From Hyperoplus lanceolatus (Eukaryota > Chordata > Actinopteri > Uranoscopiformes > Ammodytidae): 64,000 bases of DNA. The DNA lies in contig CM049397.1 of the NCBI GenBank assembly GCA_026929865.2, forward strand, positions 496,001-560,000, in the 5' to 3' direction. The notes beneath the pieces were generated by a model that had not been told where the DNA came from, ran no database searches, and saw only the letters and a list, made by a program, of their open reading frames with translations. The translations under genes and the position numbers were made by a program. Positions 10,003 to 59,654 of the stretch are shown here, in pieces (within the stretch, counting starts at the first letter, position 1; each line of letters opens with the position of its first letter).

Positions 10003-10030
10003 CGTTTTAATGTTGTGTATTTTTCAGTGG

Positions 10031-18229: not shown

Positions 18230-19806
18230 CACTGCGTTCCAAATTATTATGCAAATGATATTTTCTCAGATTTTCCTAAATAGTCGATGCAAATGACAGT
18301 CAGTATAATTTTCAAGTCATCAACCGTTAAAGTATGATTAAAATTTTATTGAACAAACCTCCAAATGATAACGGTATTTTTTTCAAAAATTAAAAACTCA
18401 AAATGCACCGTTCCAAATTATTATGCCAAACAGAGTTTCAAAACATTTAATAGGTTGTAAACAAATAAAAATGGTCATTTGTTGAATTTGCAGGATGTGA
18501 AGGTCATATTTAGTGAAGGTCATATTTAGTGAAATCAATAATATTTCAATAAAAAACATCTTAACAGGCCAAGTTACATGTTAACATAGGACCCCTTCTT
18601 TGATATCTCCTTCACAATTCTTGCATCCATTGAACTTGTGAGTTTTTGGAGAGTTTCTGCTTGAATATCTTTGCAGAATGCCAGAATAGCCTCCTATAGC
18701 TGCTGTTTTGATGTGAACTGCCTCCCAACCTCATAGATGTTTTGCTTGAGGGTGCTCCAAAGGTTCTCCAATAGGGTTGAGGTCAGGGGAAGATGGGGCC
18801 ACACCATGAGGTTCTCTCCTTTTATGCCCATGACACAGAGGTATTTTTGCAGCATGAGATGGTGCATTGTCATGCATGAAGATGATTTTACTACGGAAGG
18901 CACTGTACTTTTTTTTGTACCATGGAAGAAAGTGGTCAGTCAGAAACTCAACATATTTCGCAGAGGTCATTTTCACACCATCAGGGACCCAAAAGGGGCC
19001 TACCAGCTCTCTCCCCATTATTCCGGCCCAAAACATGACTCCGCTACCTCCTTGCTGACGTCGCAGCCTTGTTGGGACATGGTGGCCATTCACCAACCAT
19101 CCACTACTCCATCCATCTGGACCATCCAGGGTTGCACGGCACTCATCAGTAAACAAGACAAGTTTGAAAATTAGTCTTCATGTATTTCTGAGCCCACTGT
19201 AACCGTTTCTGCTTGTGAGCATCGTTTAGGGGTGGCCGAATAATAGGTTTATGCACAACTGCAAAGCTCTGGAGGATCCTACACCTTGAGGTTTGCGGGA
19301 CTCCAGAGGCACCAGCGGCTTAAAATACCTGTCTGCTGCTCTGTAACGGCATTTTAGCAGCTGCTCTCCTAATCCGATGAATTTGTCCGGAAGAAACCTT
19401 CCTCATTATGCCTTTATCTGCACCAACCCGTCTGTGCTCTAAATCAGCCACAAATCTCTTCACAGTACGATGATCACGCTTAAGTTTCAGTGAAATATCT
19501 AATGTTGTCATACCTTATCCAAGGTATTGCACTATTTGACGCTTTTCGGCAGCAGAGATATCCTTTTTCTTTCCCATATAGCTTGAAACGTGTGGCCATC
19601 TTAATAATGTGGAACGCCCTTCTTAAGTAGTTTTTCCTTTGATTGGGCTCACATGGCAAACTAATTATCACAGGTGTATGAGATTAATTTCAATGATCCA
19701 AGGCATCCTGAGACACAATATCATACATGAGTTTAATTGAAAAACAAAAAATTTAAAGTTTATGACACTTCAATCCAATTTGTATAATAATTTGGAACAC
19801 TGTGTA
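18228..19806 (-). mobile_element. Tc1-like transposon, near full length, decayed transposase
   Basis: The ends CACTGCGTTCCAAATTATTA (18230) and the reverse complement of TAATTTGGAACACTGTG (to 19804) are inverted, with TA duplications at 18228-18229 and 19805-19806. The minus strand carries transposase pieces in order. These are a basic N-terminus and paired-type HTH (19320-19671: TTLDISLKLKRDHRTVKRFV, RIRRAAAKMPLQSS) and the DDE core (18731-19156: FTDECRATLDGPDGW, GSGVMFWAGIMGRELVGPFW, FMHDNAPSHAAK, SPDLNPIG). Several frameshifts separate them. The element is 1575 bp and shows internal 18-bp direct repeats (aaggtcatatttagtgaa) near 18500. Confidence 0.88.
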
Positions 19807-21336: not shown

Positions 21337-22251
21337 TTAAAGCGGCTACGAGTAACATTTAAATATCTTTTAAACAGCCTCATGTTTCCTCTGATAATCA
21401 TAAATTTCCTTTAACAGCAAACGAGACCATCAGTGCAAAGAAATATGTTTTTATATAGTTTTTATTACTGCTTTTGGTCTGGTCGCACACCCAGTCCGAT
21501 TTTCGGTTCGCTCGTGCAGGCTCTATGGTCTCATATCCATATTGGTTGCAGATTTCAGTGTGGCGCTGCAACGTGATTTGAGAAGCCTATCCCTCCAGGT
21601 GAGGGAAGGGGAGCGGGAGCCTTGTTTCAGACAGTTATTTGTCGTCATAATGACTGATAATGGGGCTGAACCATCAAAGAAAAAAAAGAGAATGCAATGA
21701 AGAAAAGCTTAAAGGGAGAGTGATATAGGCTACGGGCGGGACGAGCACGTGTATACAATTTCACGAGAGCGAAACTAGACTGCAGTGTTAACTCCTAAAT
21801 GAATGAGCGGTTGGTACTAACACAAAGTTTGCTTTGCTTCACCATCATCAGATAACCATTATCTGAAATAGTCATTATTTACATCAACAACACAAACACA
21901 TTACCTCATCGTGATCCATACTAACTGCCGTCACTCGTTCATTCGCTTTCTGTGAGGACACAGCTCCGTGAAAGATAGTAGTTAGGTGACGCTGTTGCAT
22001 CAACTCATTGCAATCAGGTGTGTGTACTGACTAGCATTAGTTGATGCAGTGTCAAAACCACTCTCACGGAGCCGAAAAGAGTCCTCACACTTTCAACACA
22101 CGGACATACACTATATTGCGCCCTTCTCAGGTCACACTCGCACGCCTAGCACGAGCTAGAAAACAGCTTTGCGACAGCGGGCGTCGTAAAAATACTACCG
22201 CTTTTGTCCAAAGGGGACGCCAACGTGCCATGTTACTCGTAGTGGCTTTAA
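21337..22251. mobile_element. TTAA-flanked non-autonomous DNA transposon, copy 1
   Basis: TTAAAGCGGCTACGAGTAAC at the left and the reverse complement of GTTACTCGTAGTGGCTTTAA at the right give about 20-bp inverted ends bounded by TTAA, the target used by piggyBac and Kolobok elements. The 915-bp interior has no transposase. It closely matches the copies at 53920-54816 (inverted) and 55922-56829 (same orientation). Confidence 0.85.
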
Positions 22252-22453
22252 GCAAAATAAAACTTTGGGCGGCTGGATGGGGCCGGATAACAGTGATCAA
22301 CAAAACGATGTACAAGAAAAAAAAAACACATAGCTCAGCTGGGGAACCCCATCAACGTTCAACACCAAGAAGCAACAGGAGAGCAAAAAGCTGAAGCCGG
22401 CAGCAGCACCTTCACAGAGCTCAGCAGCGCGACAGACAAACGGAGACACACAT

Positions 22454-26572: not shown

Positions 26573-26599
26573 GTACCTCCCCCTCAATGAGAGCCTACA

Positions 26600-27683
26600 G
26601 GCGAACCACCGGGTTTCCCTGGATAGTCCCGGTGAAAATCCCTAATGAGGGAGGGATCGAGGATGAGCTGGCGGGATATCCAGCTCCTCTCCTCAGGACC
26701 ATACCCCTCCCAGTCCACCAGGTACTGGAAACCATGGCCCGGCGGCGAATGTCCATTATCCGCCTGACCTGACCATCCCTCCAGACCTTCCGACAGCGTC
26801 GAAGGTGGGCCCGGACGGATGGCACCGCGATGTCGCCCTCCTGCACTGTGAACAGAGGGGGTTGATATCGAAGAGAACATTCGAATAGGGACATCCCAGT
26901 AGCTGCACTTGTCAGGGAATTGTGGGCGTATTCAACCCAAGGAAGGTGAGTGCTCCAGGATGACTGGTTCCTTGCCATGACACAGCGCAGCGCTGCTTCC
27001 AGATCCTGGTTGGCCCGCTCCGTTTGTCCGTTAGTCTGGGGATGGTAGCCTGAGGAGAGACTGATGCCCCTAATTCATGACAGAAAGCTCTCCATACCTG
27101 GGACACGAATTGTGGACCCCGATCGGAGACCACATCAGTCGGGATCCCGTGAAGGTGGACCACATGCTGAACCTGGAGGTCAGCAGTTTCAGATGCTGTG
27201 GGAAGCTTGGGCAGTGGCACAAAATGAACAGCCTTGGAAAATCTGTCAACAATGGTGAGTATGGTTGAATTACCTTCGGATAAAGGGAGACCCGTGACAA
27301 AGTCGAGATCGATGTGACTCCAGGGGCGGCCAGGCACAGGAAGGGGACGGAGCAAACCTGAGGCGGATTGATGCGAGGACTTACTGCGGGCGCAGACAGT
27401 GCAGGCGAGAACAAAGGCACGGGTGTCAGCCTCGATGGTGGGCCACCAGAAATGTCGCTTGGCCAGGGACAGGCTGCGGTTAACACCTGGGTGGCAGGAA
27501 AAGCGTGAATTATGCACCCACTGGAGGACCTTGGAGCGAACAGCACTTGGCACAAACAGACGGCCCTGCGGCCCGGTTCCTGGATCCGGTTCCTCCCTCA
27601 GCGCCTCACGGATCCGTGCCTCAATCTGCCACCTGACTGCCCCCAACACACAGCCAGGGGAGACGATGGTGTCGGGACTGGGG
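26600..27683 (-). pseudogene. Gypsy integrase and chromodomain
   Basis: An HHCC zinc module ([20 protein letters not shown], then ACTVCARSK), the catalytic core ([52 protein letters not shown]) and, after a frameshift near 27000, [15 protein letters not shown] are followed by the chromodomain. The chromodomain ([12 protein letters not shown]) probably directed insertion to marked chromatin in active copies. The part upstream of the zinc module joins the RNase H end only after removal of 27684-29050. Confidence 0.85.
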
Positions 27684-29050
27684 CAGGGTTTTTCCTGCAT
27701 TCAAAAAATTTTGGCGCCCGCCAAAGGAATTTTAGCGCCCCCCAAAGGAAAATTCTCAGCGCCAAAGTGTTTTTTTTTTTTTATATAGATAAATAAATAA
27801 AAATCTACTTAAAACGGCTCCAAATGTGTTTCCATTTCCGCGCCATTCCAGTCATATTACTTGCAATCTCAGTTGTAAAAAAAGAAATCAGGTCGGGGAT
27901 TATCGTTATTAAACTATCATTGTTCCGCTCGCCGGGGCATGCAGGCTTATAAATGCAGCAAACCCTTTCAGCCGTGAGCTCCGCTCGGCCCCTCCCTCAC
28001 CTGATAGTTTCGCTAACGGCTAGTCCAGAGAGTAGGCTACAAGGGAGATGTTGCGCATTGCCGGGTGTTTTGAAAAACTTCTAGATGACGAGAATAAAGG
28101 TAAAACTAATTGTGTTGTCTGAAAACACTTCAGACTCGCAACAAACTAAAAAAATTTGCAAGATTTGTCACGCGCGGACACGCGAGTAACATGACATACG
28201 CGACCGAGAGACAGAGAGAGAAAGAAAAGTGATATACGACCTGATCTGCACCTTTAAACATCCCGACCAATTTGTTTATTCACTTTAAGTCGAGTCATAG
28301 TTGTCTATGACCAAGCAATCAATGAATAAAAACACAGGAAGTTTAAAGCTCCTTAAGTCCTGCCACCACAACTGTCAACACTACAATGCAACTGCCTATC
28401 CAGCCAGCTCCATGACATAAATAAATCATGCCCTTACATTCAATGCTAGCAAAAGACGTGCCCTATCAACACCATTTACAACTGGTTATTTTTATTTTGA
28501 CATATTTTTATTAAATTATTAAAAATATGTTTCACTTATTTAGCCTATTTCTATTCTCCCTGTTTTCAGTTCAATTAGGCTTTTGTTTAAAGTCCAAAGT
28601 CATGGTGTTTTTAGAAAAAAACCTTGTTAAAAGTAAAATAAATGCATAATGTTCTTAAATCAATGATTAACTGTCTTTAATAATCGTGATTACACAATGC
28701 GATTACTCAAAATAATCATGATTATGATTTTTTCATAATCGAGCAGCCCTACCTTCTTCCATGGTTTAGATCAATTAAAGTATTAAATAGGTAGGCCTAG
28801 TCATTATTAGTATTTTGACTTCATATCTACAGGTTGTTTATTGTGATTTCATAAGTGTCAGTGAGCTCCATGGTAACGCAGTGATTGACAGGCTGACTGA
28901 AATGCTCTTGAGCTGGACAGAAACTCCCCTCTCCCAACCCAACACCCCTCTTAAAATACACAAACCGTTTGCCTTTACTGTCGCGACCCCAAAAAAAGTC
29001 GGTCGCGTACTGACCCCCCAAAGGCCCATTCTGAGCCAGGAAAAACCCTG
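27684..29050. mobile_element. hAT-like non-autonomous insertion within gypsy pol
   Basis: The left end CAGGGTTTTTCCTGCATTC and the reverse complement of the right end (CAGGGTTTTTCCTGGC) share a 14-bp inverted terminus. Removal brings gypsy RNase H (ending ...[11 protein letters not shown]) next to the integrase (PSPDTIVSP...). The 8-bp flanks (GACTGGGG and TGGGGGAG) do not match cleanly, so the TSD is unproven. The interior contains another fragment ending gagcagccct near 28750, the end of a common TAGGGCTGCTC fish repeat. Confidence 0.6.
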
Positions 29051-29976
29051 TGGGGGAGCCGTGGTCAATGGCAAACTCTCGGGACAGGGCATCCGGCTTC
29101 CCATTCTTGGACCCCGGCTGATATGTGAGCTGGAAGTTAAATCGGCCAAAGAATAATGCCCAGCGGGCTTGGCGGGAGTTACGGCGCTTGGCGGACTGAA
29201 TATAGGACAAGTTCTTGTGATCGGTCCAAATAACAAAAGGGATCTCCACCCCCTCCAACCAGTGCCTCCACTCCTCGAGCGCTAGCTTAACAGCTAGTAG
29301 TTCCCTGTTGCTGACGTCGTTGTTGTGCTCTGCTGGTGACAGGCGTCTGGAGAAGAAGGCACAGGGATGAAGCTTCCGATCCTCCGGGGAGTGTTGTGAG
29401 AGGACCACCCCTACCCCGGAGTCTGAAGCGTCGACCTCGACCACGAACTGCAGAGCCAGGTTGGGGTGAGTGAGAATGGGGGCTGAAGTGGACCGCTTCT
29501 TCATCTAAATGAACGCCGCTTCAGCCTCGGGGTTCCATGAGAAGGAAACAGCCGGGGAGGTGAGTCTAGTGAGACGAACCGCTACTCGACTATAATCCCT
29601 GACAAACCTTCGGTAGAAGTTGGCAAAGCCCAAAAAGCGCTGGAGCTGCTTTCGGGTGGAGGGTTGAGGCCACTGTGCCACCGCCTGTACCTTCTCGGGG
29701 TCGGCCCTCACCTGCCCTCGCTCTATGATGTACCCCAGGAAGTCCACGGAGTCCAAATGGAATTTGCACTTCTCTGCTTTAACATACAGTTTATTCTCCA
29801 GGAGTCACTGTAACACCTGCTTCACGTGCTGGAAATGTTCCTCCTGAGAACGAGAGAAGATAAGTATGTCGTCCAAGTACATAAACACAGTGCGATTTAA
29901 GAGGTCACGGAGCACGTCATTAACCATGGCTTGGAAGACAGTGGGGGCATAAGTGAGTCCAAAAGGCATTACCAGG

Positions 29977-31415: not shown

Positions 31416-31897
31416 ACCTAAACATTTTCCTATTAATGTGAATTATCAAAGGAAAACTCTATGAAGAAAGATGGCTTTTAGAAGCAGCGCTGCACCAGTC
31501 ACAGCATTTAGAGGGTCAGAGATAAACACACTGGATGTGTGGCCCGGGCATAACACCATTTACAGCATGCTCTTTTATTGATCTCAGTGGAAAGTTGTTT
31601 TTGCAGCTGTAAAAGCACAAAACACAAAGAAGAATAGAATACTGTGTAATGGAAATATGACAAACACATTTATATAACCCAACATCCAATATAAACAAGA
31701 TATACTCCAACATTTATTTTACATAGATATTTTAAGTGGAATTATGTCTGACTTCCTTAGATTAATATCTTAGAACAGTGGGATAAATGCATTATTAATG
31801 CTTTACGTTTCACATCACACAGTGAGTTCCATCCAGCCATCAGGGGGGTATGAGCTCTGAATGAATGAATAAATCCATTAATGATAAATGGACTCAC
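31416..31897. other. Intron flanking a mamdc2 exon
   Basis: Ordinary AT-rich intron; no repeat ends or ORFs of note. Confidence 0.5.
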
Positions 31898-32044
31898 CCA
31901 CCCCACTTGTGTGGTCTCCTCTGGGCCCTGTATAGGAGGTTGGGGTGTGTCCTCTGACGCGCAGCCAGTCAGCTTGGTCCTTTGTCTTATCCTGTATGTA
32001 GCCACAGATTCCTTTTTCAAAGTTACACTGGTCTGGAAGGGAAC
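31898..32044 (-). CDS. mamdc2: mamdc2 exon, start of MAM domain 4
   Basis: Acceptor catgctacag|GTTC and donor GGGGTGG|gtgagt bound a 147-nt phase 1-1 exon, the same length as the opening exon of MAM3. It encodes SLPDQCNFEKGICGYIQDKT, DQADWLRVRG and HTPTSYTGPRGDHTSGVG. The TPTSYTGP.GDHT.GVG stretch closely matches MAMDC2 MAM4. The exon is intact although pogo-like and LINE fragments lie only a few hundred bases away on each side. Confidence 0.92.
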
Positions 32045-32565
32045 CTGTAGCATGAGTGCATAAGGCGAAAAGGGATAGTTCAGTATTTTTGAAGTGGGGT
32101 TGTGTGAGGCATGTTACCTTTTGGCAGTGGTTCCCAAACTTTTCCAACAGGACCCCTTTTGGTAGATAAGAATATTTTGATCCCCCCAACACATGCCTAC
32201 ACATTTCAATGCACTCATTAATCCTCCTCCCCCAACACCACGGATAAACTAGACATGCCGCTAGCTTCTGCGTCGTTCTGTGAATTTGGCGGGATTGAGT
32301 TCGGAGTTATTTTGGTAGTTGTCTTGCATCCTAGAGTAAAACGTTCACACTGTTTAGTTGTTGAAGTGTCAGACATCTCACCACAGAAGTTGTTTTCAAA
32401 GGGTTAGCAGCACATTGTAGGGTTTTTAGGTTAAATCGTGCACTATTGAATGGAGCCTTCTTGCTAAGCTGCCACCTCCCCCCGAGTGCCTGTATTAGGA
32501 GCTGCAAGAATCGAAGTTGAATACAAAAGTATGATTAAAATGTTACCAGTGGTGGTTTCAATGGG
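32045..32565. repeat. MITE fragments in the intron upstream of MAM4
   Basis: gggatagttcagtatttttg at about 32071 and cagtggttcccaaacttttc at 32126 are typical starts of two fish MITE families (the second hAT/Charlie-like). Neither partner end was found. Confidence 0.4.
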
Positions 32566-33583: not shown

Positions 33584-34745
33584 CTTGAGGGCCCGTAACT
33601 TCGCATCGGCGGCGCCCCACCAGTCGGCTGGGCTCAAACGCATCTACGAACCACCTCTGTGCTCTTTCCAAACTCGAGTCCCAAGTTGTGGCCAATTGAC
33701 GGTTGCAATCGTGGCAAGTCTGCAAAAAAATGGCCGCTCTTTCAAAGACGTTTTTGTTAAGGGCGGGCATGTTTTTTGAGCTATCTCGCTAAAACCCCTA
33801 TGGTCCAAGAGCACATTATAGACATGTGCTTCTTGGTCCCCTGATGCTGTGTACACAATTTGGTGATGATAGGTTGGAAATCCACAAAGTACATGTCACT
33901 TGACAGTATTTCAGGTTATGCAAATTAGGAAAAAAAATCATGGCTGACCCATGGCTATCAAGTCAATCAGATTCAGTGGAAAGGGGCGTGGCCTGTCAAA
34001 CATTGCATTTTTGAATTATGGTTTTCGCATTTGTGGCGCATTTGTGTCTCGACAAGCCTCGCGCGACTTGCTGCCACATGTGTTCTGCACGGCCACCATT
34101 GACCAAAATGTTTACGCAGGGGCGGGGCTTATTAGCAAATCGGCTGTAACTCATTAATCATAGGTCCTATCATAAAACTTGCTGGATATGTGCAGAAGAC
34201 ATGTGGTAGCTTGTCCCTCAAAGCTTGCCGAGATTAACCCAAGGGAGCGCCACAAATGCGAAAAACACAATACAAAAATGCAATGTTTGACAGGCCACGC
34301 CCCTTTCCCCCTAACTCTGATAGACTTGAAATTTCTTACACATGTACAGTTTACGATGCTCTACAATAAAGCCTTTTGGACCTTAGGGGTCAGCTATGAT
34401 TTTTTTCTTCCCTAATTTACATGACCTGAAATACAGTCAAGTGACATTTACTTCGTGGATTTCCAACCTATCATCACCAAATTGTGTACACAGCATCAGG
34501 GGACCAACATACACGTGGGTATAAAGTTTTAGCGAGATAGCTCAACAAACATGGCCGCCCTTAGCGAAAACATCCTCGCAAGAGTGGCCATTTTTCTGCA
34601 GATTTGCCACAATTGGCCACAACTTGGGACTCGAGTTTGGAAAGCGTGCAGCGGCGGTTCGTAGAAGCGTTGGAGCCGGGCCGACGGGTGGGGCGCCACC
34701 AATGCGGGGCTGGCGGTCAGCGCCGGGTGGCCCGTAATTTCAAAA
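33584..34745. repeat. Foldback element with about 440-bp inverted arms
   Basis: The left arm (about 33608-34038) and right arm (about 34247-34702) are inverted copies. They can be followed through gcggcgccccacc, the CTCGAGTCCCAAGTTGTGGCC block, the ggatttccaacctatcatca block and GGGGCGTGGCCTGTCAAAC. The 208-bp centre holds a single copy of a unit that is tandemly duplicated in the related element at 59655-60770. The outer sequence gagggcccgtaac at the left matches the end motif of that element. Confidence 0.8.
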
Positions 34746-35040: not shown

Positions 35041-35519
35041 AATATTTCGGTAACACTTTATTTGAAGGCGTATACATAACGCTGTCATAAGACTGTCATA
35101 AGACTGTCATTACACTGTCATGACATATGTCATGAACATTATGAATGGTTATGAATGGTTATGACTGTTGTCATAAAGTGTCATTCGGTAAATTATGTCA
35201 CGTTTAATGACACATTGACATTGTATGAGATGTCTTTTTTATGACAACCTGACATAAGCTAAGACAAAATAACTTGTCCGTGTCTTTGTAATGACAACCT
35301 GACATTAATGAAGACAAAATATCTTGGTTATGTCGACTTGACATTAACCAATAACATGACCTGTCATAAACATGTAATAGTAGGCTTAATAATCAAATGT
35401 AAAAAAAACTGTTTTGATTTATGTTGTAAGATTACATTAAACTGTCATATGTGGAAGGTTTTGATATTGACTGTCATGAGACCTTTATTATACTGTCATG
35501 AATGTTTCTGTTGGCCTGA

Positions 35520-35900
35520 AGTAAAGTGAAACAATTTGGACAGTTCATTAACATGTCATGAAGCGTTATTACACTGTCTAATGCCTTTATAACAGGCTCA
35601 TGAATGATTCTGTAGGACCAAAGTAAAGTGAAACAATTTGGACATTTCATTAACATGTCATGAAGCGTTATTACACTGTCTAATGCCGTTATAATATGCT
35701 CATGAATGATTCTGTTGGCCTGAAGTAAAGTGAAACAATTTGGACAGTTCATTAACATGTCATGAAGCGTTATTACACTGTCTAATGCCTTTATAACATG
35801 CTCATGAATGATTATTTTGGCCTAAAGTAAAGTGAAACAATTTGGACAGTTCATTAACATGTCATTAAGTGTTATTACACTGTCTAATTTTGACATTGAC
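35520..35900. repeat. Tandem ~100-bp units, left arm of palindrome (about 4 copies)
   Basis: Each unit includes gtgaaacaatttggacagtt, cattaacatgtcatgaagcg and ttattacactgtctaatgcc. Four copies, each about 103 bp, are followed by a diverged partial. Confidence 0.85.
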
Positions 35901-38539
35901 TGTCATGAAACCTTTATTATACTGTCATGAAGTATTGACTTTACCTCAAAGTGAAACAATTTGGACTTTTCAGTAAATATTATTACACTTAATTATACAC
36001 ACAACAGTGTTAACTGCAGTAGTATCCCCTTTATAGATGTAACATGAAGCATATCAGTATTACATGTGGAAAATACCTTAACAAAAGCAATATAAGTCAA
36101 GACAGTCTGTTTTATTTGCATTGAGACACTTAACAAAAAATATATACATACACTTAAAACAGAAATAAGAACTACTACTTTAAAATCAAATGCACTTTCC
36201 AGTCCTTAAATTAACAATCCAGAGATTGTATGTTATATAATATATGTTATAATGGCTGCTAAAAATCACCAGGAAGAGATCAGCTTAAACACAAAAGGAG
36301 GGCAAATGGCACTCAGCCTTCAAACTTTGTAGGCATGTTAGCTTCAGCATATAACTAGTGCAAACTTGTAAGTGAATACGGTGCTTAAACAGGCAGATTG
36401 CAGATCAGCAAATCATAGAGCTATTAGCACACACAATAATAACAGAAATATACATTAGATCAGGTTGAAGTAAATAAAAGATACATAAAATAAAAGAGAC
36501 TGTGTAGGCCTACTGCCCTGGCAGTGCGTAGTATGGAGCATGACAGCCAGCTAACATTTAAAAGCCCAATAAAGAATAAAAGACACAATGCTTGACTTCT
36601 CTTGTTTCTTCGTGAACCTTGTATTGGTAGGTTTTTCTTTGTAAAACTGTAACATAGACATGAAAAAATAAATCAATACACACACAGTACCAGACCTATA
36701 CAGACAGTAGACAATACACAGTAAGTAGTATATGGTAAGTATACACACAGCTATGCTATTCCTATTTAAGTATTAAACAACACATGACTGTAAAAACACA
36801 GCTTTGCATGTATGACAAAGTATAGTGAGCTAGCAAACAATTAGCTTCTGTAGTAGTGTACCTGCTAGCTAACAGGGCCACATGTGCAATCAAATAAACA
36901 TACAAGTAGCTTACTTTACATTCTTACACCTGAAAGCTAATGTTAACATTGCACACTATCAACACTTACAGACAAATAGTCTCCAAGGCAAAGGCGTTAT
37001 AAAGAAATATCCTGCAGCATTTATCTGTAGGCTATGCTGGTCCTATAGTCTGCATACAACTGTGAACAAAATGTAGGCTACATCAAACACCGGTGATGTG
37101 GCGCTAGATCCTGTATGAAACACGTGAGGGCTCACTCTGACACTTTTTCCAAAAACCAAGATAAAATAAAAATATTAACACTTCATATTCACTTGGGAAA
37201 ACTGCTATACAACAATACTTGCAATTGCAATATGTCAAGACAGTCTGTGCTGCCTTAACTATAAGTCAGTAATTATTGTTGTATAGCAGTTTTTCAAAGT
37301 AAATATGACGTTTTAATATTTTCATTTTTGGAAAAAGCGTCAGAGTGAGCCCTCACGTGTTGCATACAGGATCTAGCGCCAAATCTCCGGTCGTTGCCTA
37401 GCTTACAATTTTTTTTCCCAGTTGTATGCAGTCTACCGGGACATCATAGCCTATACATGCTGCTGAGTATTTCTTTATAACGCCTTTGCCTTGGAGACTA
37501 TTTGTCTGTAAGTGTTGATAGTGTGCAATGTTAACATTAGCTTTCAGGTGTAAGAATGTAAAGTAAGATACTTGTATGTTTTTTGATTGCACATGTGGCC
37601 CTGTTAGCTAGCAGGTACACTACTACAGAAGCTAATTGTTTGCTAGCTCACTATACTTTGTCATACATGCTAAACTGTGTTTTTACAGTCATGTGTTGTT
37701 TAATACTTAAATAGGAATAGCATAGCTGTGTGTATACTTACCATATACTACTTAGTGTGTATTGTCTACTGTCTGTATAGGTCTGGTACTGTGTGTATAT
37801 TGATTTATTTTTTCATGTCTATTTTACAGTTCTACAAAGAAAAACCTACCAATACACATGGGCTTTTAAATGTTAGCTGGCTGTCATGCTCCATACTACG
37901 CACTGCCAGGGCAGTAGGCCTACACAGTCTCTTTTATTTTATGTATCTTTTACCTTTTATCTTTTACTTCAACCTGATCTAATGTATATTTCTGTTTTTA
38001 TTGTGTGTGCTAATAGCTCTATGATTTGCTGATCTGCAATCTGCCTGTTTAAGCACCGTATTCACTTACAAGTTTGCACTAGTTGTATGCTGAAGCTAAC
38101 ATGCCTACACAGTTTGAAGGCTGAGTGCCATTTGCCCTCCTTTTGTGTTTAAGCTGATCTCTTCCTGGTGATTTTTAGCAGCCATTATAACATATATTAT
38201 ATAACATACAATCTCTGGATTGTTAATTTAAGGACTGGAAAGTGCATTTGATTTTAAAGTAGTTCTTATATCTGTTTTAAGTGTATGTATATATTTTTTT
38301 GTTTAGTGTCTCAATGCAAATAAAACAGACTGTCTTGACTTATATTGCTTTTGTTAAGGTATTTTCCACATGTAATACTGATATGCTTCATGTTACATCT
38401 ATAAAGGGGATACTACTGCAGTTAACACTGTTGTGTGTATAATTAAGTGTAATAATATTTACTGAAAAGTCCAAATTGTTTCACTTTGAGGTAAAGTCAA
38501 TACTTCATGACAGTATAATAAAGGTTTCATGACAGTCAA

Positions 38540-39110
38540 TGTCAAAATTAGACAGTGTAATAACGCTTAATGACATGTTAATGAACTGTCCAAATTGTTT
38601 CACTTTACTTCAGGCCAAAATAATCATTCATGTGGCATTAGACAGTGTAATAACGCTTCATGACATGTTAATGAACTGTCCAAATTGTTTCACTTTACCT
38701 GAGGCCAAAATAATCATTCATGAGCCTGTTATAAAGGCATTAGACAGTGTAATAACGCTTCATGACATGTTAATGAACTGTCCAAATTGTTTCACTTTAC
38801 CTGAGGCCAAAATAATCATTCATGAGCCTGTTATAAAGGCATTAGACAGTGTAATAACGCTTCATGACATGTTAATGAACTGTCCAAATTGTTTCACTTT
38901 ACCTGAGGCCAAAATAATCATTCATGAGCATGTTATAACGGCATTAGACAGTGTAATAACGCTTCATGACATGTTAATGAAATGTCCAAATTGTTTCACT
39001 TTACTTTAGTCCTACAGAATCATTCATGAGCCTATTATAAAGGCATTAGACAGTGTAATAACGCTTCATGACATGTTAATGAACTGTCCAAATTGTTTCA
39101 CTTTACTTCA
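38540..39110. repeat. Tandem ~100-bp units, right arm of palindrome (about 6 copies)
   Basis: These are inverted counterparts of the left-arm units (caaattgtttcactttac...). Six copies, one shortened by about 15 bp. The open 156-codon frame here arises because the unit length leaves one frame free of stops; it is not a gene. Confidence 0.85.
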
Positions 39111-39299
39111 GGCCAACATAAACATTCATGACAGTATAATAAAGGTCTCATGACAGTCAATATCAAAACCTTCCACATATGACAGTTTAATGTAATCTTA
39201 CAACATAAATCAAAATAGTTTTTTTTACACTTGATTATTAAGCCTGCTATTACATGTTTATGACAGGTCATGTTATTGGTTAATGTCAAGTCGACATAA

Positions 39300-39515
39300 C
39301 CAAGATATTTTGTCTTCATTAATGTCAGGTTGTCATTACTAAGACACAGACAAGTTATTTTGTCTTAGCTTATGTTAGGTTGTCATTACCAAGTTATTTT
39401 GTCTTAGCTTATGTCAGGTTGTCATTACCAAGTTATTTTGTCTTAGCTTATGTCAGGTTGTCATTACCAAGACATCGACAAGTTATTTTGTCTTTGCTTA
39501 TGTCAGGTTGTCATA
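39300..39515. repeat. Tandem ~39-bp units at the right arm
   Basis: aagttattttgtcttagctt plus atgtcaggttgtcattacc is repeated four to five times. The left arm has about two counterparts (35240-35330). Confidence 0.8.
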
Positions 39516-39714
39516 AAAAAGACATCTCATACAATGTCAATGCGTCATTAAACGTGACATAATTTACCGAATGACACTTTATGACAACAGTCATAACCAT
39601 TCATAACCATTCATAATGTTCATGACATGTGTCATGACAGTGTAATGACAGTCTTATGACAGTCTTATGACAGCGTTATGTATACGCCTTCAAATAAAGT
39701 GTTACCAATATTTC

Positions 39715-40226: not shown

Positions 40227-40367
40227 CTTAAAGGGGAAAACAAGAGAACCCTTTACTCAACCGTTTTTCAGTCTCATCCATCCATTCAAATTCCAGTCTT
40301 TCTATTCTTCCACTCAGATCATTAAAAAATATACTTCTTCATACATTACCCTTCTAGTTCTTCATAC

Positions 40368-40633
40368 CTTGGAAAGCATGGGCTTCATGTAGGTGATTTC
40401 CACAGCAGTCCATACAGCCATGGAGGTGTTAGGGAGGCCCCACACTTTCTCCTGGGCCACATTGTTTTCGTCATAAATGTAGATAACCAGAGCATTGTCT
40501 ACTTTCCTGAATCCATGAAGGAGGTAATAGAACCTGAGGCAATACTTGTGGTTCCCTGGTAAGAAGGGACCATGAAGCCGACCCATAAAACCAGGCCTCG
40601 AAGTGAAACCAGTTTTTGCCAAGAGAAAACTAC
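40368..40633 (-). CDS. mamdc2: mamdc2 exon, middle of MAM domain 3
   Basis: Acceptor attcttcctag|GTAG and donor TTTCCAAG|gtatga bound a 266-nt exon that enters in phase 1 and leaves in phase 0. It encodes SFLLAKTGFTSRPGFMGRLH, then the core KYCLRFYYLLHGF and DENNVAQEKVWG, ending VEITYMKPMLSK. These are the central strands of a MAM domain, close in wording to MAMDC2 MAM3 (as recalled: RLYGPSLPGN, YCLRFHY, ENHVVQEKIW). It is separated from the next exon by an intron of only 141 bp, in contrast to the multi-kilobase neighbours. Confidence 0.93.
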
Positions 40634-40739
40634 CTAGGAAGAATAAAACAATGAACATAATTAAGAAAAGATAGGTAATGCCAGTTGAACTACAATACAT
40701 TTAATTACAATGGTATTAGTTATTAATATATAGATACAT

Positions 40740-41998
40740 AGATCATTAAACTTCAGGGAAGAAATTGGCCCAGACATGCCAAAAGGGTGAGAAAATATCA
40801 GAGGATTTCAGGAATAGAGTTGTGATTTGACATTTGTCTAGGGAAAGCTATCAATTAATTTAAAAAAAGTTTGAGCTCAATCGGTCCACCGTGAGGCAAA
40901 TCATCTACAAATGAGAGAGCTTTAAGAGTGACTGAACATCTGCCTAGAAGTAGACTTCCTTCGAAATATCCACAAGCGCCACAAGAAAAGTGATTTTTCA
41001 GTTAAAAGCCAACCCAAACATTACATCTTGTGATTTGAATACCTCTTGAAGCATCTGGGACAGATGTGTATGGTTCCACAATAAGAAGAAAACTCAGTCA
41101 ACATAGGAGGGTTGCTGAAAAAGCCTCTGCTCTCAAAAAAGGAACCAAACTGCTCGTCACAACTTTGCCAGAGACCACCTGGAGATACCTGAAGTCTTCT
41201 GGAAGTCTCTTCTGTGGACAGATTAGTCCAAAATTTAACTGTTTGGTCATAACCAAAACTGCCATGTTAGGGCAAAAACGCAACTCTGCCTACCACCAAA
41301 AGAACCTTTTCCAAAGTGAAGAATGGTGGCGGCAGATGGTTTGCAAATCTCCAGATGTAATGTTTGGGTTGGCTTTTAACTGAAAAATCACTTTTCATGT
41401 GCCGCTTATGGATATTTTTGAAGGAAGTCCACTTCTAGGCAGATGTTCAGTCACTCTGAGAGCTCTCCATTTCTAGATTATTTGCCTCACGGTGGACCGA
41501 TGGAGCTCAAACTTTTTTTTAAATTAATTGATAGCTGTCCCCAGGCAAATGTGCAACATCATAACCCTATTCCTGAGATCCTCTGAGATTTTCTTTCCTC
41601 TTGGCGTGTCTGGCCTGTATGGGTTCACTTTGGTGGGCCTAAACTGACCTGGTTTGATCTCTGTTTTATCAAGTGCCACCCAATTTCTTCCCTAAAGATA
41701 TCTCATTACATTGGTCAATTTCATCACTCAATTCAGTCCACCTGATTGTGTTTACCTGCTTGATTTAAGCAATGCAGCTCAGGGTTCATAAACTTTAGCA
41801 AATACAAAAGTTGTCAAATCATTTGTTTTATCTGTTTCAACAAATGATTTTCGGAAAAGAAAGATTTTGAATTGATAAACAGACATCTGTTATTTCATAT
41901 AAAAATACTGGTATTGATAAAGATGAATTAATAATGGTTAAACTAAATACAATTCCAAAATGCTCAAGGGGTTCACATACTTTCAAGCAGCACTGTAT
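40740..41998 (+). mobile_element. Tc1-like transposon with inverted-duplicated 5' coding end
   Basis: The plus strand 40780-41140 carries decayed N-terminal transposase sequence (KISEDFRNRVVI, KKFELNRSTVRQIIYK, LKANPNITSCDLNTS, MYGSTIRRKLSQH), followed by parts of the catalytic region to about 41340. From about 41350 to 41715 the N-terminal coding sequence recurs in reverse orientation (ggctcacggtggaccg and matching blocks). The right terminus (gttcacatactttcaagcag then cactgta, near 41998) is Tc1-like; the left terminus is missing. The C-terminal half of the transposase was replaced by the inverted 5' copy. Confidence 0.78.
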
Positions 41999-42880: not shown

Positions 42881-42964
42881 AGTGGCGACTGGTCATTAGG
42901 GGCACGTGGGGCGAAGCCCCACCTACAAGAAAGAAAAATAAATATATATATATATATATATATA

Positions 42965-43830
42965 TACACTCAACAAAAATATAAACGCAACACTTTTGTT
43001 TTTGCTCCCATTTTTCATGAGATGGACTTAAAGATCTAAATTTCATTCCAGATACACAATTGTACCATTTCTCTCAAACATTGTTCACAAATCTGTCTAA
43101 ATGTGTGATAGTGAGCACTTCTGCTTTGCTGAGATAATCCATCCCACCTCACAGGTGTGCCACATCAAGATGCTGATCTGACATCATGATTAGTGCACAG
43201 GTGTGCCTTAGACTGTCCACAATAAAAGGCCACCCTGAAATGTGCAGTTTTGTCTCACAGCAAAATGCCACAGATGCCACAAGCATTGAGGGAGCGTGCA
43301 ATTGGCATGCTGACAGCAGGAATGTCAACCAGATCTGTTGCTCGTGCATTGAATGTTCATTTCTCCACCATAAGCCGTCTCCAGCAACTTCGCACAGCCA
43401 TTGAAGAGGAGTGGAACAACATTCCACAGGCCACGATTGATAATCTGATAAACTCTATGCGAAGAAGATGTGTTGCACTGCATGAGGCAAATGGTGGTCA
43501 CACCAGATACTGACTGGTTCTGAGTCCCCAGACCCCCAATAAAGCAAAAAAATGCACATTTCAGAGTGGCCTTTTATTGTGGACAGTCTAAGGCACACCT
43601 GTGCACTAATCATGATGTCAGATCAGCATCTTGATGTGGCACACCTGTGAGGTGGGATGGATTATCTCAGCAAAGCAGAAGTGCTCACTATCACACATTT
43701 AGACAGATTTGTGAACAATGTTTGAGAGAAATGGTACAATTGTGTATCTGGAATGAATTTTAGATCTTTAAGTCCATCTCATGAAAAATGGGAGCAAAAA
43801 CAAAAGTGTTGCGTTTATATTTTTGTTGAG

Positions 43831-43832
<2 letters not shown>
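42965..43832 (+). mobile_element. Compact Tc1-like element with long inverted ends and an intact mini-ORF
   Basis: Inverted ends of about 210 bp (CACTCAACAAAAATATAAAC... at 42967; its reverse complement ending at 43832) lie inside a TA microsatellite that supplied the TA target. The interior is an internally deleted transposase gene whose remaining N- and C-terminal parts are in the same frame (43265-43513). The two inverted ends are almost identical, which suggests a young copy relative to its neighbours. Confidence 0.87.
43265..43513 (+). CDS. 82-residue Tc1 transposase deletion product: HTH domain joined to C-terminus
   Basis: The ORF begins with ATG at 43265. Residues 1-40 (MPQMPQALRERAIGMLTAGM, then STRSVARALNVHFSTISRLQ) are the first helix-turn-helix of the paired-like DNA-binding domain. 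Residues 41-82 (QLRTAIEEEWNNIPQATIDN, MRRRCVALHEANGGHTRY) are the transposase C-terminus. About 250 central residues, including the entire DDE catalytic core, are missing by an in-frame deletion, probably across a short CAGC repeat. It has no stop or frameshift. If expressed it could bind Tc1 ends but could not cut; this is inference. Chance preservation is also possible because the element is young. Confidence 0.65.
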   Translation: MPQMPQALRERAIGMLTAGMSTRSVARALNVHFSTISRLQQLRTAIEEEWNNIPQATIDNLINSMRRRCVALHEANGGHTRY

Positions 43833-43862
<30 letters not shown>

Positions 43863-45539: not shown

Positions 45540-46348
45540 ATGGAGGCCATTCGCACAGAGCCAGGATGGGATGAGATCACCATAAGTGAGGCATACGGCC
45601 TGTCAAAGAAACTCCGGGACAGAGCTTTCTGCAGCTGCTGGAATTTTTTTCACTGATTATGCCAGAAGTGGATGTCTTATACAACACTCTGCAAAAACGT
45701 AGCATTGATGCCCCATGCATTAACAGCGCACTGGCACATTTCAAGGAAAATGTCCCAAAAATGAGGCAGCAAGCTGATAATTTGGCTGCCAACTCTCATG
45801 AGGGAACAGATGAGCCAGGCAGACGAGTTACCAACACAGCGCCGGTGATGAAGGAGGCCTGTGACACAGTCATCTCTCAGGTAGAACAGCGGTTTTCACA
45901 CAGTGACCACTTGATTGCTGCAAAGCTGGTTGACAGCTCATTCTTCCCCCAGTTTGTGCTGTCATTCCCTACATCAGAGCTGGATTGTGCTGTGAAACTC
46001 TGGCCTTTGGATAAGAAAGAAAAGTTGAAGTCCGAGCTGATCATGCTGTACCGCCACAGTGAGCTTCACACAGGTAAGACGGCCCTGTCACTGTTAAAAT
46101 CCATCTATGAGAACAACCTAGATGAGGTTTTTGCTGAGACCATTATTCTGCTGAAAATCATTGCAACAACACCAATGACGACAGCGGAGTCAGAGAGGAA
46201 TTTTTCCACGTTAAAGAGGATAAAAACCTTCAGCCGCAACACCATGGGACAGCCGAGGCTCAACGCATTGGCCATGCTCTCAATTGAAAGCCAGCTGATC
46301 CACCAGCTACATGACTTAATTCCCAAAGTCATCGAAAAGTTTTCCTAG
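45540..46348 (+). pseudogene. hAT-family transposase C-terminal fragment (ZMYM1-like hAT)
   Basis: The 45540 frame (EAIRTEPGWDEITISEAYGL, SKKLRDRAF) shifts by one base near 45645 into the 45659-46348 frame (MPEVDVLYNTLQKRSIDA..., ending PKVIEKFS). The latter has SSFFPQFVLSFPTSELD, LLKIIATTPMTTAESERNFS, TLKRIKTFSRNTMGQPRLNA and LAMLSIES. This is the hATC dimerisation domain of the fish transposase group related to ZMYM1/DUF4371 proteins. The catalytic DDE region and BED/TTF zinc fingers would be upstream but are absent. Confidence 0.8.
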
Positions 46349-49739: not shown

Positions 49740-50329
49740 AGGACCGGAGACCACTTTCTTTTTACTTTCCCAATTACAGTGTTTGAAGGTGGTCCTTAAG
49801 GCATTTAAAAATATTATCTAAAAAAATGTCCGTACCCAATGAGACAAATGGACTCCATTGGCTAAAAAGAGTCCCGCAGTGTCATATCTAATACGATTAT
49901 GGGGAATAATTCCTCCACTGACTGCATTAACAAACTGGGCCATAAGACGGTTGACACACTTTCTGGCCCCGTCAATCCTGGCTGGAAACCTCTCAGCCCT
50001 CCAGCGGCATCTTGGGATGAGGGCCGAAAAGAATATCTTCATTGCCGGGTAAAATCCATGGAGAAAGAGCAGGTCCCTCTCCATTTCATTCACCAGACTG
50101 ATCCTCTTGACTGCCCCCAAGTCGTTGCCACCGCAGTGAATGACGAGTACATCAGGCACTACTCTTTCAACAAGGGTTTCAAGAAAGAGAGGAAGAAGCT
50201 TACCCCACCGCAGCCCACCCACGCCGAACCAGCAGACGGTAAGGTCCGGCGCCTCCATCTCCCTCCTCTGGGCTCCGCCCTGGGCAGCTCGCCGGACATA
50301 GCTGTCCCCAATCACCCAAACAAGCACTG
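49740..50329 (-). pseudogene. SGNH-hydrolase domain exon of retrotransposon type (DIRS/Ngaro-like)
   Basis: A likely acceptor (ttgtttccacag|TGCTTG, exon start 50329) opens VWVIGDSYVRRAAQGGAQRR..., with WFGVGGLRWGKLLP, VPDVLVIHCGGNDLG, KIFFSALIPRCRWR and NGVHLSH. Blocks GDS (Ser), GG (Gly), GGND (Asn) and VHLS (His) are those of SGNH hydrolases. This domain is carried by fish tyrosine-recombinase retroelements and related LOC genes. The usual catalytic Asp three residues before His is Asn here. A frameshift near 49845 precedes GTDIFLDNIFKCLKDHL, the expected tail. No recombinase or RT lies nearby, so this is a fragment or an exapted exon. Confidence 0.65.
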
Positions 50330-51256
50330 TGGAAACAAAGTAATGTTAGGTATATCATCAGGGATAGGGATAGGTATAGGTATATTACAAAATGCATTAT
50401 AAGCAGTGGCTGGGTTTCAATAATGTTATGATAGATACCATAGGTCATAAATATAATGTGTACATTCAAATAAAATACATACATGCATGATGTCAAGATA
50501 AAGATAAGTCTTACATTTATTTATACTTTGATTAAATACATGCATATGTTTTACATTGATGCTCAAGTCTTAAAGCAATGAAGTTTTTCTTACTCTTAGG
50601 CGGCATCTCGATTCAGTTCAGTGACACTAAAAAGAACAAAATGAAAAATTGAGTAAATATAAAAGTGCCTTTTTTATTAATACAACAGTGTGCAGAATAA
50701 TGAGGCTGATATTAATGTTGTCTGTAGGCTGTAGTAATGTCTTATTCAGCGGCAGCAATATCTACTGCTTTTCATGCTAAACGTTACAAATATAATTTTA
50801 ATAACATTAAATAACATTTAATAATAACATTGATTCGATTTCAAAACCTTAAAATATTTACACACAGTGTGGTTTGTCGATATAAGTGATCCGACACAAT
50901 TTTAGATTTTTATAATTTGACAAAACGTTAAGTTCTAAATTGGCAAAAAAAAGCATGGCCAATCACGATTATACTGCCGGGCTTTTGTTAGCTAGCAAAA
51001 ACCCGGCAGAGGGTTACTGAATAGCGCATATAATACACCTACAAAAATATTACACAACATAAAGGTATTATGTTCTTGTTGTTTTTCTGTTTTATACCCA
51101 TAATTTATTAATATTAACACATTTTTCATGTTTTGTTTTGTCGTCGAGATTAACTTACCAACTAACTACTTGACTCCAACAGTTCTCGAAGGGATCCAAC
51201 AATGGAAGACTGTGAAGAGGTCATCACAGTTCAGTGCAGCAGTATTAGTAGTAAGT
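50330..51256. other. Intron without recognised features
   Basis: AT-rich; includes short near-identical words (taacattaaataacattta). No gene or element ends found. Confidence 0.4.
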
Positions 51257-53919: not shown

Positions 53920-54816
53920 TTAAAGCTACTACGAGTAAGTCGGCACGTTGGCGACACCTTTGAACAAAAGCGGTAGTATTATTACGACGCCAGCTGTCGT
54001 GAAGCTGTTTTCTAGCTCGTGCAGGCGTGCAAGATTCAAATAATCAGGAAGCAATATGGTGCGTGTCCGTGTGTTGAAAGTGTGAGGGCACCGGACTCTT
54101 TTCGGCTCCGTGAGTCTATGGGTGACACAGCATCAACTAATGCCATTAAGTGCTAAACACACCTGATTGCAATGAGTTGATGCATTGTCACCTCTCACGG
54201 AGCTGAACGAGTCCCCGTGTCCTCACACAAAGCGAATGAACGAGAGATGGCAGTTAGTTAGTATGGATCACGATGAGGTAATGTGTTTATGTTGTAAATA
54301 ATGACTATTTCAGATGAATAATGGTCATCTGATGATGCTGGTGAGGCAAAGTAAACTTTGTTTTAGTAGGCTACCGCTCATTCATTTAGGAGTAAACACT
54401 GCAGTCTAGGTTCGCTGCGTGAAATTGTATATACGTTGCTTGGCAACGCCCTCCCGCCCGACTATCACTCTCCCTTTTAGCTTTTCTTCATTGCATTTTC
54501 TTTTTTTTCTTTTATGGTTCAGCCCCGTTATCAGTCATTATGACGACAAACAACTGTCTCAAACAAGGCTCCCGCTCCCCTTCCCTCACCTGGAGTGATA
54601 GGCTTCTCAAATCGCGTTCCTGCGCCACACTGAAATCTGTGACCAATACGGATATGTGACCATAGAGCATGCACGCGTGAACCGAGTAATAAAAACTAAT
54701 AAAAACGTCTTTCTTTGCACTGATGGTCTCGTTTGCTGTTAAAGGTAATTTATGATTATGAGAGGAAACATGAGGCTGTTTAAAAGATATTTAAAAGTTA
54801 CTCGTCGCCGCTTTAA
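53920..54816. mobile_element. TTAA-flanked non-autonomous DNA transposon, copy 2 (inverted)
   Basis: TTAAAGCTACTACGAGTAAG at the left and the reverse complement of CTCGTCGCCGCTTTAA at the right. It matches copy 1 (21337-22251) in the opposite orientation along its length, for example aaacatgaggctgtttaaaa and ggagccgggagccttgtt-type blocks. It ends exactly where the older relative at 54816-55240 begins. Confidence 0.82.
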
Positions 54817-55240
54817 TGTTGACAAATACATCAGCCTACAATGACAAAACAACCAACTCTGTTAGTTGTTAACTTATGTTGTCTTAACCTAGGTTTATGA
54901 ATGTTTCTAAATCAACGTTTAATTTGCTTAATCACTGTCAAATTACCATTATTAATCTGAAATAGTCACATATAAACACAGTACCTCATCGCGATCCATC
55001 GTGCCTTCTCTCGTTGACTGGCTTCCAACACGAATATATTGCTTCCAAATCGCGTGACGGAGGCACAGGCTGGCATTTGCTAGAAAACACCTTTACAAAA
55101 GTTGGCGTTGTAAAAACACTACTGCTTTTGTCCAAATGGGCCGCTAGAATTCACACAAACTGAAAGTTCCTTGGAGGGCATATAACATAAGTTGTACATT
55201 TATAACGGCAGAAATTCTATATTTTTGATTAAAATATTGA
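54816..55240. repeat. Older TTAA-family relative, reverse complement of 42090-42500
   Basis: Shared words include caaccaactctgttagttg, cctcatcgcgatccatcgtg and cctgcttttgtcc-type ends. The copy-2 element seems to have inserted into or beside it at a TTAA. Confidence 0.65.
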
Positions 55241-55443
55241 ATGTTGATCGTGTATTAGCTACCCCAGATGGATGATTTTAATGTGTATAAGGGAACTCAG
55301 GCACCCCTTAGCACCCCTCAGCTCCCATTGGCTCTCAAATAACTCAAACCCACACAACAGACATTTTAATATTACAGAGATCCATGTCAGTGTTGTGACT
55401 GAGCAGAATAAGGTTTTGGAGTATGTGGTGCTGTATGATTTAC

Positions 55444-55590
55444 CACTTCCTGTAGTGTGGTCTCCAGTGCTGTAGACATTAGGCTTGACTGAGATTCTGC
55501 TCCACACCTTGCTCTCTGCTCTCTCCTCATAGTATAGACACAGTCCATTTTCAAAGTCACAGTTTGCTATAGAGGGGTCAAAGGTCGGCT
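55444..55590 (-). CDS. mamdc2: mamdc2 exon, start of MAM domain 3
   Basis: Acceptor ttgtgttacag|AGCC and donor GGAAGTG|gtaaat bound a 147-nt phase 1-1 exon. It encodes 49 residues containing the MAM opening CDFENGLC and the GDHTTGSG turn that precedes the exon boundary in each MAM domain of this protein. It has no stop or frameshift. The intron that follows (14.8 kb) holds the dense transposon block 40.7-55.4 kb. Confidence 0.92.
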
Positions 55591-55921
55591 CTGTAACACA
55601 AAACACAGAATTATCAATATGAACCTGCCTGGTTAACAGAAGTCCGTGATATGAATGTGTTTGTGAAATTAACATTGTGCATCCTTGAAGTAAAATAGGA
55701 ACCTGGGGTTAGAATGAAGATGATGAATTTTAAGAGCACCATGGTAAAACATCCAGTGGTAGGAAAATTACAAAAATGCTTTACTTGATTTGCATTTTGC
55801 ATTTAGCATAGGGAGTGGTGTTACTGCTAGAGAACAGCAGTGGTTGAAAAATAATATGAGGGAATAAAAGATGAGTGTGAATGATGATGGTGATAGTGTC
55901 CATCGTGAGTGTGAGGAAAGC

Positions 55922-56829
55922 TTAAAGCGGCTACGAGGAACTTTTAAATATCTTTAAAACTCATTTCTCATTTTACCTCTGATGGTCACAAATTACCTTT
56001 AACAGCAAACGAGACCATCAGTGCAAAGAAAGCTGTTTTAATTAGTTTTTATTAATGCCTTTGGTCTGGTCGCACACCGATTGGTCGCAGATTTCAGTGT
56101 AGCGCAGCAATGCGATTTGAGAAGCATGTCCCTCCAGGTAGGGAAGGGGAGCCTTGTTTGAGACAGTTATTTGTTGTCATAATGGCTGATAACGGGGCTG
56201 AACCATAAAAGAAAAAAAGAAAATTCAATGAAGAACATTAAAAGCTAAAAGGGAGAGTGATAGACGAGCGGGAGGAGGGCGTTTCCAAGCAACGTGTAAA
56301 CAACTTAGCAGGATAAACTAGTTCTGCAGTGTTTACTCCTATTTAGCGGTACTAAAAAAAAGTTTACTTTGCTTCATCATAATCAGATGAATGTTGCATA
56401 TATCTGATTATGATGAAGCAAAGTAAACTTTTTTTTAAATAGTCACTATTTACAACAAAATAAACACATTACCTCATTGTGCTCCATCCTGTCGTCTCTC
56501 GTTCATTCGCTTTCTGTGAGGGCACAGAATCGTTCAGCTCTGTGAGAGTGGTTAGTGAACCTGCATCAACTCATTGCAATCAGGTGTGTGTGGCACTGAC
56601 TAGCATTAGTTGATACAGTGTCAGTAACCACTCTCACGGAGCCGAAAAGATTTTGTGCCCTCACACTTTCAACACAGACATGCACAGTCTATATTGAGTC
56701 CTAATCATTTGACACTCGCACAGCCGGCACGTGCTAGAAAACAGCTTTACAACAGCTGGAGTCGTAAAAATACTACCGCTTTTGTCCAAAGGGGCCACCA
56801 GCCACCAATGTTCCTCGTAGCCACTTTAA
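55922..56829. mobile_element. TTAA-flanked non-autonomous DNA transposon, copy 3
   Basis: TTAAAGCGGCTACGAGGAAC starts and CCTCGTAGCCACTTTAA ends the 908-bp element. It has the same orientation as copy 1. It carries an extra perfect inverted duplication absent from the others: agtttactttgcttcatcat at about 56360 and its reverse complement near 56410-56432. Confidence 0.83.
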
Positions 56830-59135: not shown

Positions 59136-59654
59136 GCTATGTTCCCCGCTTTATGTTTTTTTCCAAAAAAGGGTCCTATGTTCCCCGGTCGCAATACATA
59201 GGCCTAAGCTAGCTACATGGTTCATGCGCCGTAGCTGGTGGCAGAGCCGCTCCAGCCCTACCCGACTCGCTGGCTGTGATGCCCGGCGCAGTCGCCCTCT
59301 TGATCGAGCGAATCTACGAGCGGCCGCCCCCCGCCAGATCTGCCTTTCCAGTCCAGAGATTTGACTATTCGGCGGCCGTGCGGGGCAATTTTAGCCAACT
59401 TATTCCTGTCGGGTTTTAATTAGAACACAGCGCTGTGTCGCCAGACTGACTGCGTGCCTATAGAGAAAATGTAGCCTTAATGTGAGGGGAGACGGCCGCT
59501 TCCCTCTGTGAGATTCTGTCTAGCAAACAAAGTTACAATGAATCAGTCACCACCGTCACATGGACAGTGTTTAAATAAAGCTTCTCTTTATTATTATCAA
59601 TAGAGCTATAAGCAAATGGTAAATATTAAGCCTGCAGAAGAAGAATAAAAAACT
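59136..59654. other. Unassigned sequence
   Basis: It begins with two near copies of a ccccgggtcctat/atgttccccg motif (59118-59190). A GC-rich 59220-59400 stretch has no convincing ORF. Confidence 0.35.

Follow-up and report, generated by a model that had tools for sequence, protein, structure and literature searches.

A palindromic element with arms longer than 2 kb and a divergent centre: a probable foldback-type transposon in Hyperoplus lanceolatus

Introduction

A DNA element that is an inverted repeat over nearly its whole length and has the same 8 bp on both sides raises the question of whether the palindrome was inserted as a unit or was made in place after its insertion. Such an element, 4658 bp long, occupies positions 35049-39706 of the window, the 64-kb stretch of Hyperoplus lanceolatus DNA that was analysed; the span of 35041-39714 given in an earlier note on this DNA counts both copies of the target site as well.

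Two minus-strand open reading frames (ORFs), at 40365-40700 and 31881-32306, contain parts of a MAM domain and match Pfam PF00629 above the cut-off; the match of a third, at 55262-55708 (-), lies below the Pfam cut-off. A piece resembling a MAM C-terminus at about 40.18 kb is recognised by a motif match only. A motif scan reveals no further MAM-like piece within the interval of about 8 kb that holds the element, and small linking exons may lie there. Because minus-strand MAM ORFs flank the element on both sides, it is predicted from the sequence to sit in this ~8-kb interval between exons of a MAM-domain gene, putatively the mamdc2 of the earlier note.

Modular architecture of the arms

Global alignment of the left arm (2200 bp) with the reverse complement of the right arm (2458 bp) shows that 2061 of 2120 ungapped columns are identical (97.2%). 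Six indels of at least 5 bp distinguish the arms, the right arm carrying an extra 128, 192 and 10 bp and the left arm an extra 44, 5 and 11 bp, and there are shorter ones as well. The greater length of the right arm comes mainly from the 128 bp of short repeats in the flank domain and the 192 bp in the array of 102-bp units. The innermost good stem is formed by 37201-37217 with 37274-37290 and encloses a central loop of 56 bp, exactly as the earlier note had it. The inverted arms, which cover almost the entire 4658 bp, and the matched ends likewise bear out its view that this is a real palindromic element. Its description of the palindrome as near-perfect holds outside the core, where pairing reaches 98.4%, but not in the central ~460 bp (37010-37467), where only 86% of the sites pair.

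From the outside inward, each arm consists of a flank domain (about 450 bp on the left and 575 bp on the right), the 102-bp tandem array, some 1.1 kb of inner domain and its half of the core (Table 1). Tandem repeats of 102, 50, 39 and 11 bp are found in the element. The 102-bp array has 4 anchors in the left arm and 6 in the right. The right array has two neighbouring units, 3 and 4, with the same sequence, and one of its spacings is 12 bp short; a short variant is present in right units 3, 4 and 5 and in no left unit. Given this identity and the absence of the variant from the left arm, the right array has probably expanded on its own. The flank domain is rich in TGTCAT/ATGACA: counted on either strand, the outermost 450 bp of the left arm hold 14 copies (31 per kb). 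The background in the rest of the window is 0.88 per kb, and 100 dinucleotide shuffles of this 450-bp segment give 1.22 copies on average.

Table 1. Domains of the palindromic element and its target site duplication, in window coordinates
Feature	Position	Strand	Length	Description
Left target site duplication	35041..35048	.	8 bp	AATATTTC
Left flank domain	35049..35495	+		terminal GGTAACACTTTATTTGAAGG; short direct repeats of 10, 11, 22 and 50 bp
Left tandem array	35496..35888	+		102-bp unit, 3.9 copies
Left inner domain	35889..37009	+		little divergence from its mirror image
Central core	37010..37467	.		halves differ at about 13.7% of sites; 56-bp loop at 37218-37273
Right inner domain	37468..38546	-		mirrors the left inner domain
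Right tandem array	38547..39131	-		102-bp unit, 6 anchors
Right flank domain	39132..39706	-		short repeats 128 bp longer than on the left; ends ...GTGTTACC
Right target site duplication	39707..39714	.	8 bp	AATATTTC

Boundaries and target site duplication

The element ends read GGTAACAC...GTGTTACC, and the first 77 bases of the left and right arms are identical. The intact 8-bp target site duplication reported earlier is indeed present, AATATTTC standing at both edges of the element. With the ends fixed, 8 matching bases are expected by chance with a probability of about 1.9e-5 from the composition of the window and 1.8e-5 from that of the flanks. In a scan of the end pairs lying up to 40 bp to either side, in which at least 15 of the 20 terminal bases had to be shared, the top score falls on the annotated ends, with 20 of 20 terminal bases and 8 bp of flanking match. 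Six other inverted pairs of the window served as controls in the same scan, and the best three rows of each all score lower; among these rows, the closest control pair shares 19 of 20 terminal bases, and its 8-bp match is a TA microsatellite. When the joined flanks are compared with the window, the insertion site is not found a second time in uninterrupted form within it, and the 64-kb window holds no second copy of the element. Sequences that end in this way appear to be common among teleosts.

Coding capacity

ORFs of at least 60 amino acids overlap the region in 16 cases, 12 of them inside the element. The earlier statement that no transposase is present agrees with the internal ORFs, the longest of which has 158 amino acids and lies within the tandem array; for 10 of the 12 internal ORFs, none of the Pfam matches listed (25 of 33 families for one ORF) reaches the curated cut-off. 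At E values up to 1, four of the 10 scanned ORFs give matches. A THAP domain is not among the listed matches of these 10 of 12 ORFs, and a non-autonomous copy would lack it regardless. Among 7993 candidate proteins scored, no relative of the 158-amino-acid repeat ORF is found at E 0.001, and Rfam gives 0 matches at the gathering score over the whole window.

Two further candidates were rejected. In every row listed (25 of 33 for one repeat ORF, 21 of 21 for the second), the zinc-ribbon-like Pfam matches fall short of the cut-off; their apparent source is CPNC, which recurs in one reading frame of the 102-bp unit. A mirrored transcription unit in the inner domains would use the donor-like GTAAGT found at 37508 on the plus strand and 36969 on the minus strand, together with AATAAA at 38319 (+) and 36116 (-); by our own estimate such motifs are no more frequent than expected by chance.

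Uneven divergence between the arms

The two arms do not differ evenly along their length. The outer arms differ at 30 of 1908 sites (1.57%) and the core at 29 of 212, or approximately 13.7% because the core alignment is gapped and some of its sites may be mispaired; the difference is about 9-fold. A change-point scan places one sharp step at 37010 in the left arm and 37467 in the right arm with a log-likelihood gain of 30.5; the highest gain among 200 permutations is 8.9. A two-by-two test with an almost identical division of the sites (30 of 1907 versus 29 of 213) gives p = 8e-15, and sites are treated as independent in both tests. A second step within the outer arms is not found, the best candidate being equalled in a 0.555 share of 200 permutations. 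By domain, the outer differences amount to 7 of 450 sites in the flank domain, 11 of 390 in the array and 12 of 1067 in the inner domain, and the higher value of the array is perhaps due to alignment of units that do not correspond. The outer substitutions comprise 16 transitions and 14 transversions, 3 of them with a CpG nearby; thus, the strong transition bias expected of plain decay is missing. If the neutral rate lies between 3e-9 and 1e-8 per site per year, the outer difference corresponds to 0.8-2.7 Myr and that of the core to 7-23 Myr, the ratio of the two ages being firmer than the dates themselves.

The sharp step suggests that the palindrome itself is older than the present state of its outer arms. 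Hence, the palindrome probably predates this insertion. Whether the outer arms were made alike again after an earlier drift is, in our judgement, evenly balanced. The 1.6% difference between them may simply reflect mutation of arms that were identical at the time of insertion, and so does not prove conversion.

Origin of the palindrome

The element is very probably a foldback-type transposon that was inserted as a unit. A transposase made elsewhere in the genome would recognise the paired ends, possibly together with the motifs that recur in the flank domain, and the whole 4.66-kb palindrome would have moved and been joined to a staggered 8-bp target in an intron. The palindrome would already have existed before the insertion, the halves of its core having drifted apart by then. 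The outer 2 kb would have been re-equalised, before or after the insertion, by conversion between the arms or by gap repair that copies one arm, and the tandem arrays would have changed their copy numbers separately in each arm. The suggestion in the earlier note that the palindrome moved as a unit remains the simplest reading of an insertion that resembles a transposon and has kept its 8-bp duplication intact. The other possibility it raised, that the palindrome formed soon after the insertion, fares badly, since a single event in place predicts even divergence and a 9-fold step is seen at 37010/37467.

The strongest competitor is a variant of transposition as a unit and disputes only the re-equalisation step: the unequal core would be a trait of the family, inherited from a master copy with 2-kb TIRs around a roughly inverted inner segment, and the outer differences would have arisen after the insertion with no conversion at all. 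We regard this as quite plausible but somewhat short of an even chance. The absence of a second step within the outer 1.9 kb speaks for it, as does the outer difference, which translates into 0.8 to 2.7 Myr at the neutral rates given above. However, the halves of the core are still 86% alike, so they were probably once alike and the outer arms were equalised later, and the weak transition bias among the outer differences (16 to 14) also speaks against post-insertion mutation as their only source.

A more specific form of re-equalisation is that conversion between the arms keeps the outer 2 kb alike and fails within about 230 bp of the centre; we consider such a self-equalising palindrome rather unlikely. 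The reason for the failure would be that arms near the centre are too close together to pair as double helices, a suggestion of our own from helix geometry. If conversion did act in this way, the core would keep the true age of the palindrome, and its drift would give the centre an asymmetry that lets a long palindrome persist and transpose. The available parts of a study of Caenorhabditis palindromes describe inverted repeats stabilised by central asymmetry (PMC1803023), and according to those of a review, genome stability is at greater risk where the spacer is shorter or missing (PMC7999016).

Formation in place is highly improbable. It supposes that a single-armed element was inserted and then duplicated in inverted orientation by fold-back or template-switch repair, which would also leave two unique flanks and a duplication if the event was confined to the element. 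However, both outer termini and the duplication would have to survive the event, and terminal sequence is not found near the centre, exact matches to the 12-base end motif in the window being confined to 35049 and 39695. Because the divergence between the arms is uneven where this mechanism predicts it to be even, it is disfavoured.

A head-to-head insertion of two ~2.3-kb elements that now look like one would account for the similar lengths of the arms. Inner termini are missing, however: with up to one mismatch, the end motif occurs three times in the window, twice at the element ends and once outside the element. A single 8-bp duplication also frames both arms, so that this origin has very little to recommend it. 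Finally, an assembly fold-back is next to negligible even though palindromes are a classic assembly problem, because it predicts identical arms and is argued against by 59 substitutions and the six indels of at least 5 bp in both directions, by unequal array copy numbers, by unlike flanks and by a target duplication that bounds the element.

Relation to known transposons

The element consists for the most part of long TIRs with internal tandem repeats, which is the structure of the foldback class, and its 8-bp duplication lies within the 7-10 bp given for foldback elements in the available parts of the literature (7 for Galileo and 8-10 for Tetris). Tetris of Drosophila virilis is described in the accessible text of PMC4079207 as a foldback element in which each TIR is composed of a flank domain, tandem repeats of about 220 bp and an inner domain; that text gives TIRs of up to 1735 bp, no conserved ORFs, a target site duplication of 8-10 bp, an array length that differs between two allelic copies and an autonomous partner that is unknown. 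Thus, three-domain long TIRs, the absence of a transposase and a duplication of a length that includes 8 bp are shared with our element, and tandem copy number varies in both, there between alleles and here between arms. In contrast, the TIRs and the unit of Tetris (at most 1735 bp and ~220 bp) differ from the 2.2/2.46 kb and 102 bp seen here, the comparison being one of layout and not of sequence. The host of Tetris also belongs to another phylum than the fish.

Galileo, a member of the P superfamily, includes copies made of two TIRs (2T, 2RT), with a 7-bp duplication and TIRs of up to about 1.25 kb, and the longest TIRs are reported only in copies that lack the transposase ORF (PMC3573991, available portions). 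As in our element, some Galileo copies are nearly all long TIR, some with internal tandem repeats (PMC3573991, same portions), and for Galileo the recruitment of inner sequence into the TIR through inverted duplication is described. However, the 8 bp found here depart from the 7 bp of Galileo, and its TIRs are given as only ~1.25 kb in that text. The tandem repeats of Galileo bear transposase-binding sites according to the accessible part of PMC3688188, and by analogy the TGTCAT-rich flank domain may play their part here. The idea in the earlier note that kilobase-long arms set this element apart from known ones is not supported, since TIRs of transposase-less foldback elements reach 1735 bp in Tetris (PMC4079207) and ~1.25 kb in Galileo (PMC3573991) in the portions available. 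MITEs are usually shorter than 600 bp, as stated in the consulted part of PMC3573991, and at 4658 bp the element is rejected as a MITE by size.

Assignment to a superfamily was considered from the target site duplication. Excerpts of the respective papers give Mutator (MULE) elements long TIRs and duplications of 8-11 bp, a range that covers the 8 bp here and is not diagnostic (PMC6446971), and give Zisupton (KDZ) an 8-bp duplication, which is not diagnostic either (PMC12730594). P/THAP9 of zebrafish also has an 8-bp duplication and internally deleted copies, but its TIRs are of 13 bp with subterminal repeats of 12 bp, as the excerpted PMC7776569 has it; the 8 bp of the P superfamily are found here, a weak sign that is common to other superfamilies (PMC7776569, likewise in part). 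Because an 8-bp duplication fits P/THAP9, Mutator and Zisupton alike, the superfamily is not fixed by it. Elements of the hAT type have an 8-bp duplication and ends of the CA(G) type, and the ends of our element are unlike this motif.

Palindromic arms of similar length occur outside transposons. The Caenorhabditis pair F44E5.4/F44E5.5 has arms of 2207 bp that are 99.7% identical and lie on either side of a 126-bp spacer; gene conversion has been proposed for this locus, and at another one the spacer has changed far more rapidly than the arms (PMC1803023, in the part available). The likeness to our element lies in the ~2.2-kb palindromic arms; the difference is that F44E5.4/F44E5.5 is a gene pair and not a transposon.

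Searches for relatives of the termini were also made elsewhere. Two terminus patterns and a pattern for the 102-bp unit give 0 matches in viral contigs. A terminal pattern gives 10 matches in prokaryotic genome contigs, all in records titled as bacteria or archaea, a number close to the 7.5 expected by our own reckoning (18 fixed bases, 257 Gb and two strands). The 12-mer terminal motif has no match in the literature searched, and related strings bring up no fish transposon among the titles listed. For teleosts and zebrafish, the word foldback appears only in the reference list of the paper checked, and a fish element may be in print.

Other elements in the window

A second, older palindromic element lies at 33602-34706, about 340 bp to the left of the main element, with halves that are ~70% alike over a 1.2-kb alignment, and pieces related to it are present at 59650-60537. 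Shorter inverted arms are found at 42942-43857 (310 bp, 98.7% identical, with TA microsatellites on both sides), at 40770-41613 (about 280 bp, 89% identical, with end-flanking matches of only 2 bp among the rows listed) and at 5791-6727 (297 bp, 95% identical). The last surround a stretch with an ORF that by eye resembles a piece of a Tc1-type transposase; the ORF tested within 5791-6727 has no Pfam match at E 0.01. At 53949-56800, two inverted copies of about 870 bp share 77% identity and are also related to 21337-22252.

Remains of retrotransposons include a broken non-LTR element at 9403-13339, with a reverse transcriptase piece above the Pfam cut-off and zinc-knuckle, endonuclease and RNase H pieces recognised by eye, and Gypsy-type LTR-like remains at 26584-29504 (-), with H2C2 and rve integrase domains in 26915-27700 and the rest recognised by eye. 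A hAT transposase C-terminal dimerisation region is present at 45590-46348. Two ORFs resemble known families below the Pfam cut-off, a DDE_3 transposase at 18734-19177 (-) and a GDSL hydrolase at 49821-50345 (-), the latter perhaps derived from a retrotransposon.

Significance

The element is well preserved and apparently a recent foldback-type insertion. Its arms are longer than the lengths given for Tetris and Galileo in the available text of PMC4079207 and PMC3573991, and what looks new is a long-armed foldback example with a centre seemingly much older than its arms. The step in divergence raises the question of whether conversion maintains the likeness between the arms of foldback transposons and, if so, how near to the centre it reaches, which further copies would make testable. 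An intronic position would place a 2-kb hairpin in the pre-mRNA of the host gene, which may thereby become a source of double-stranded RNA.
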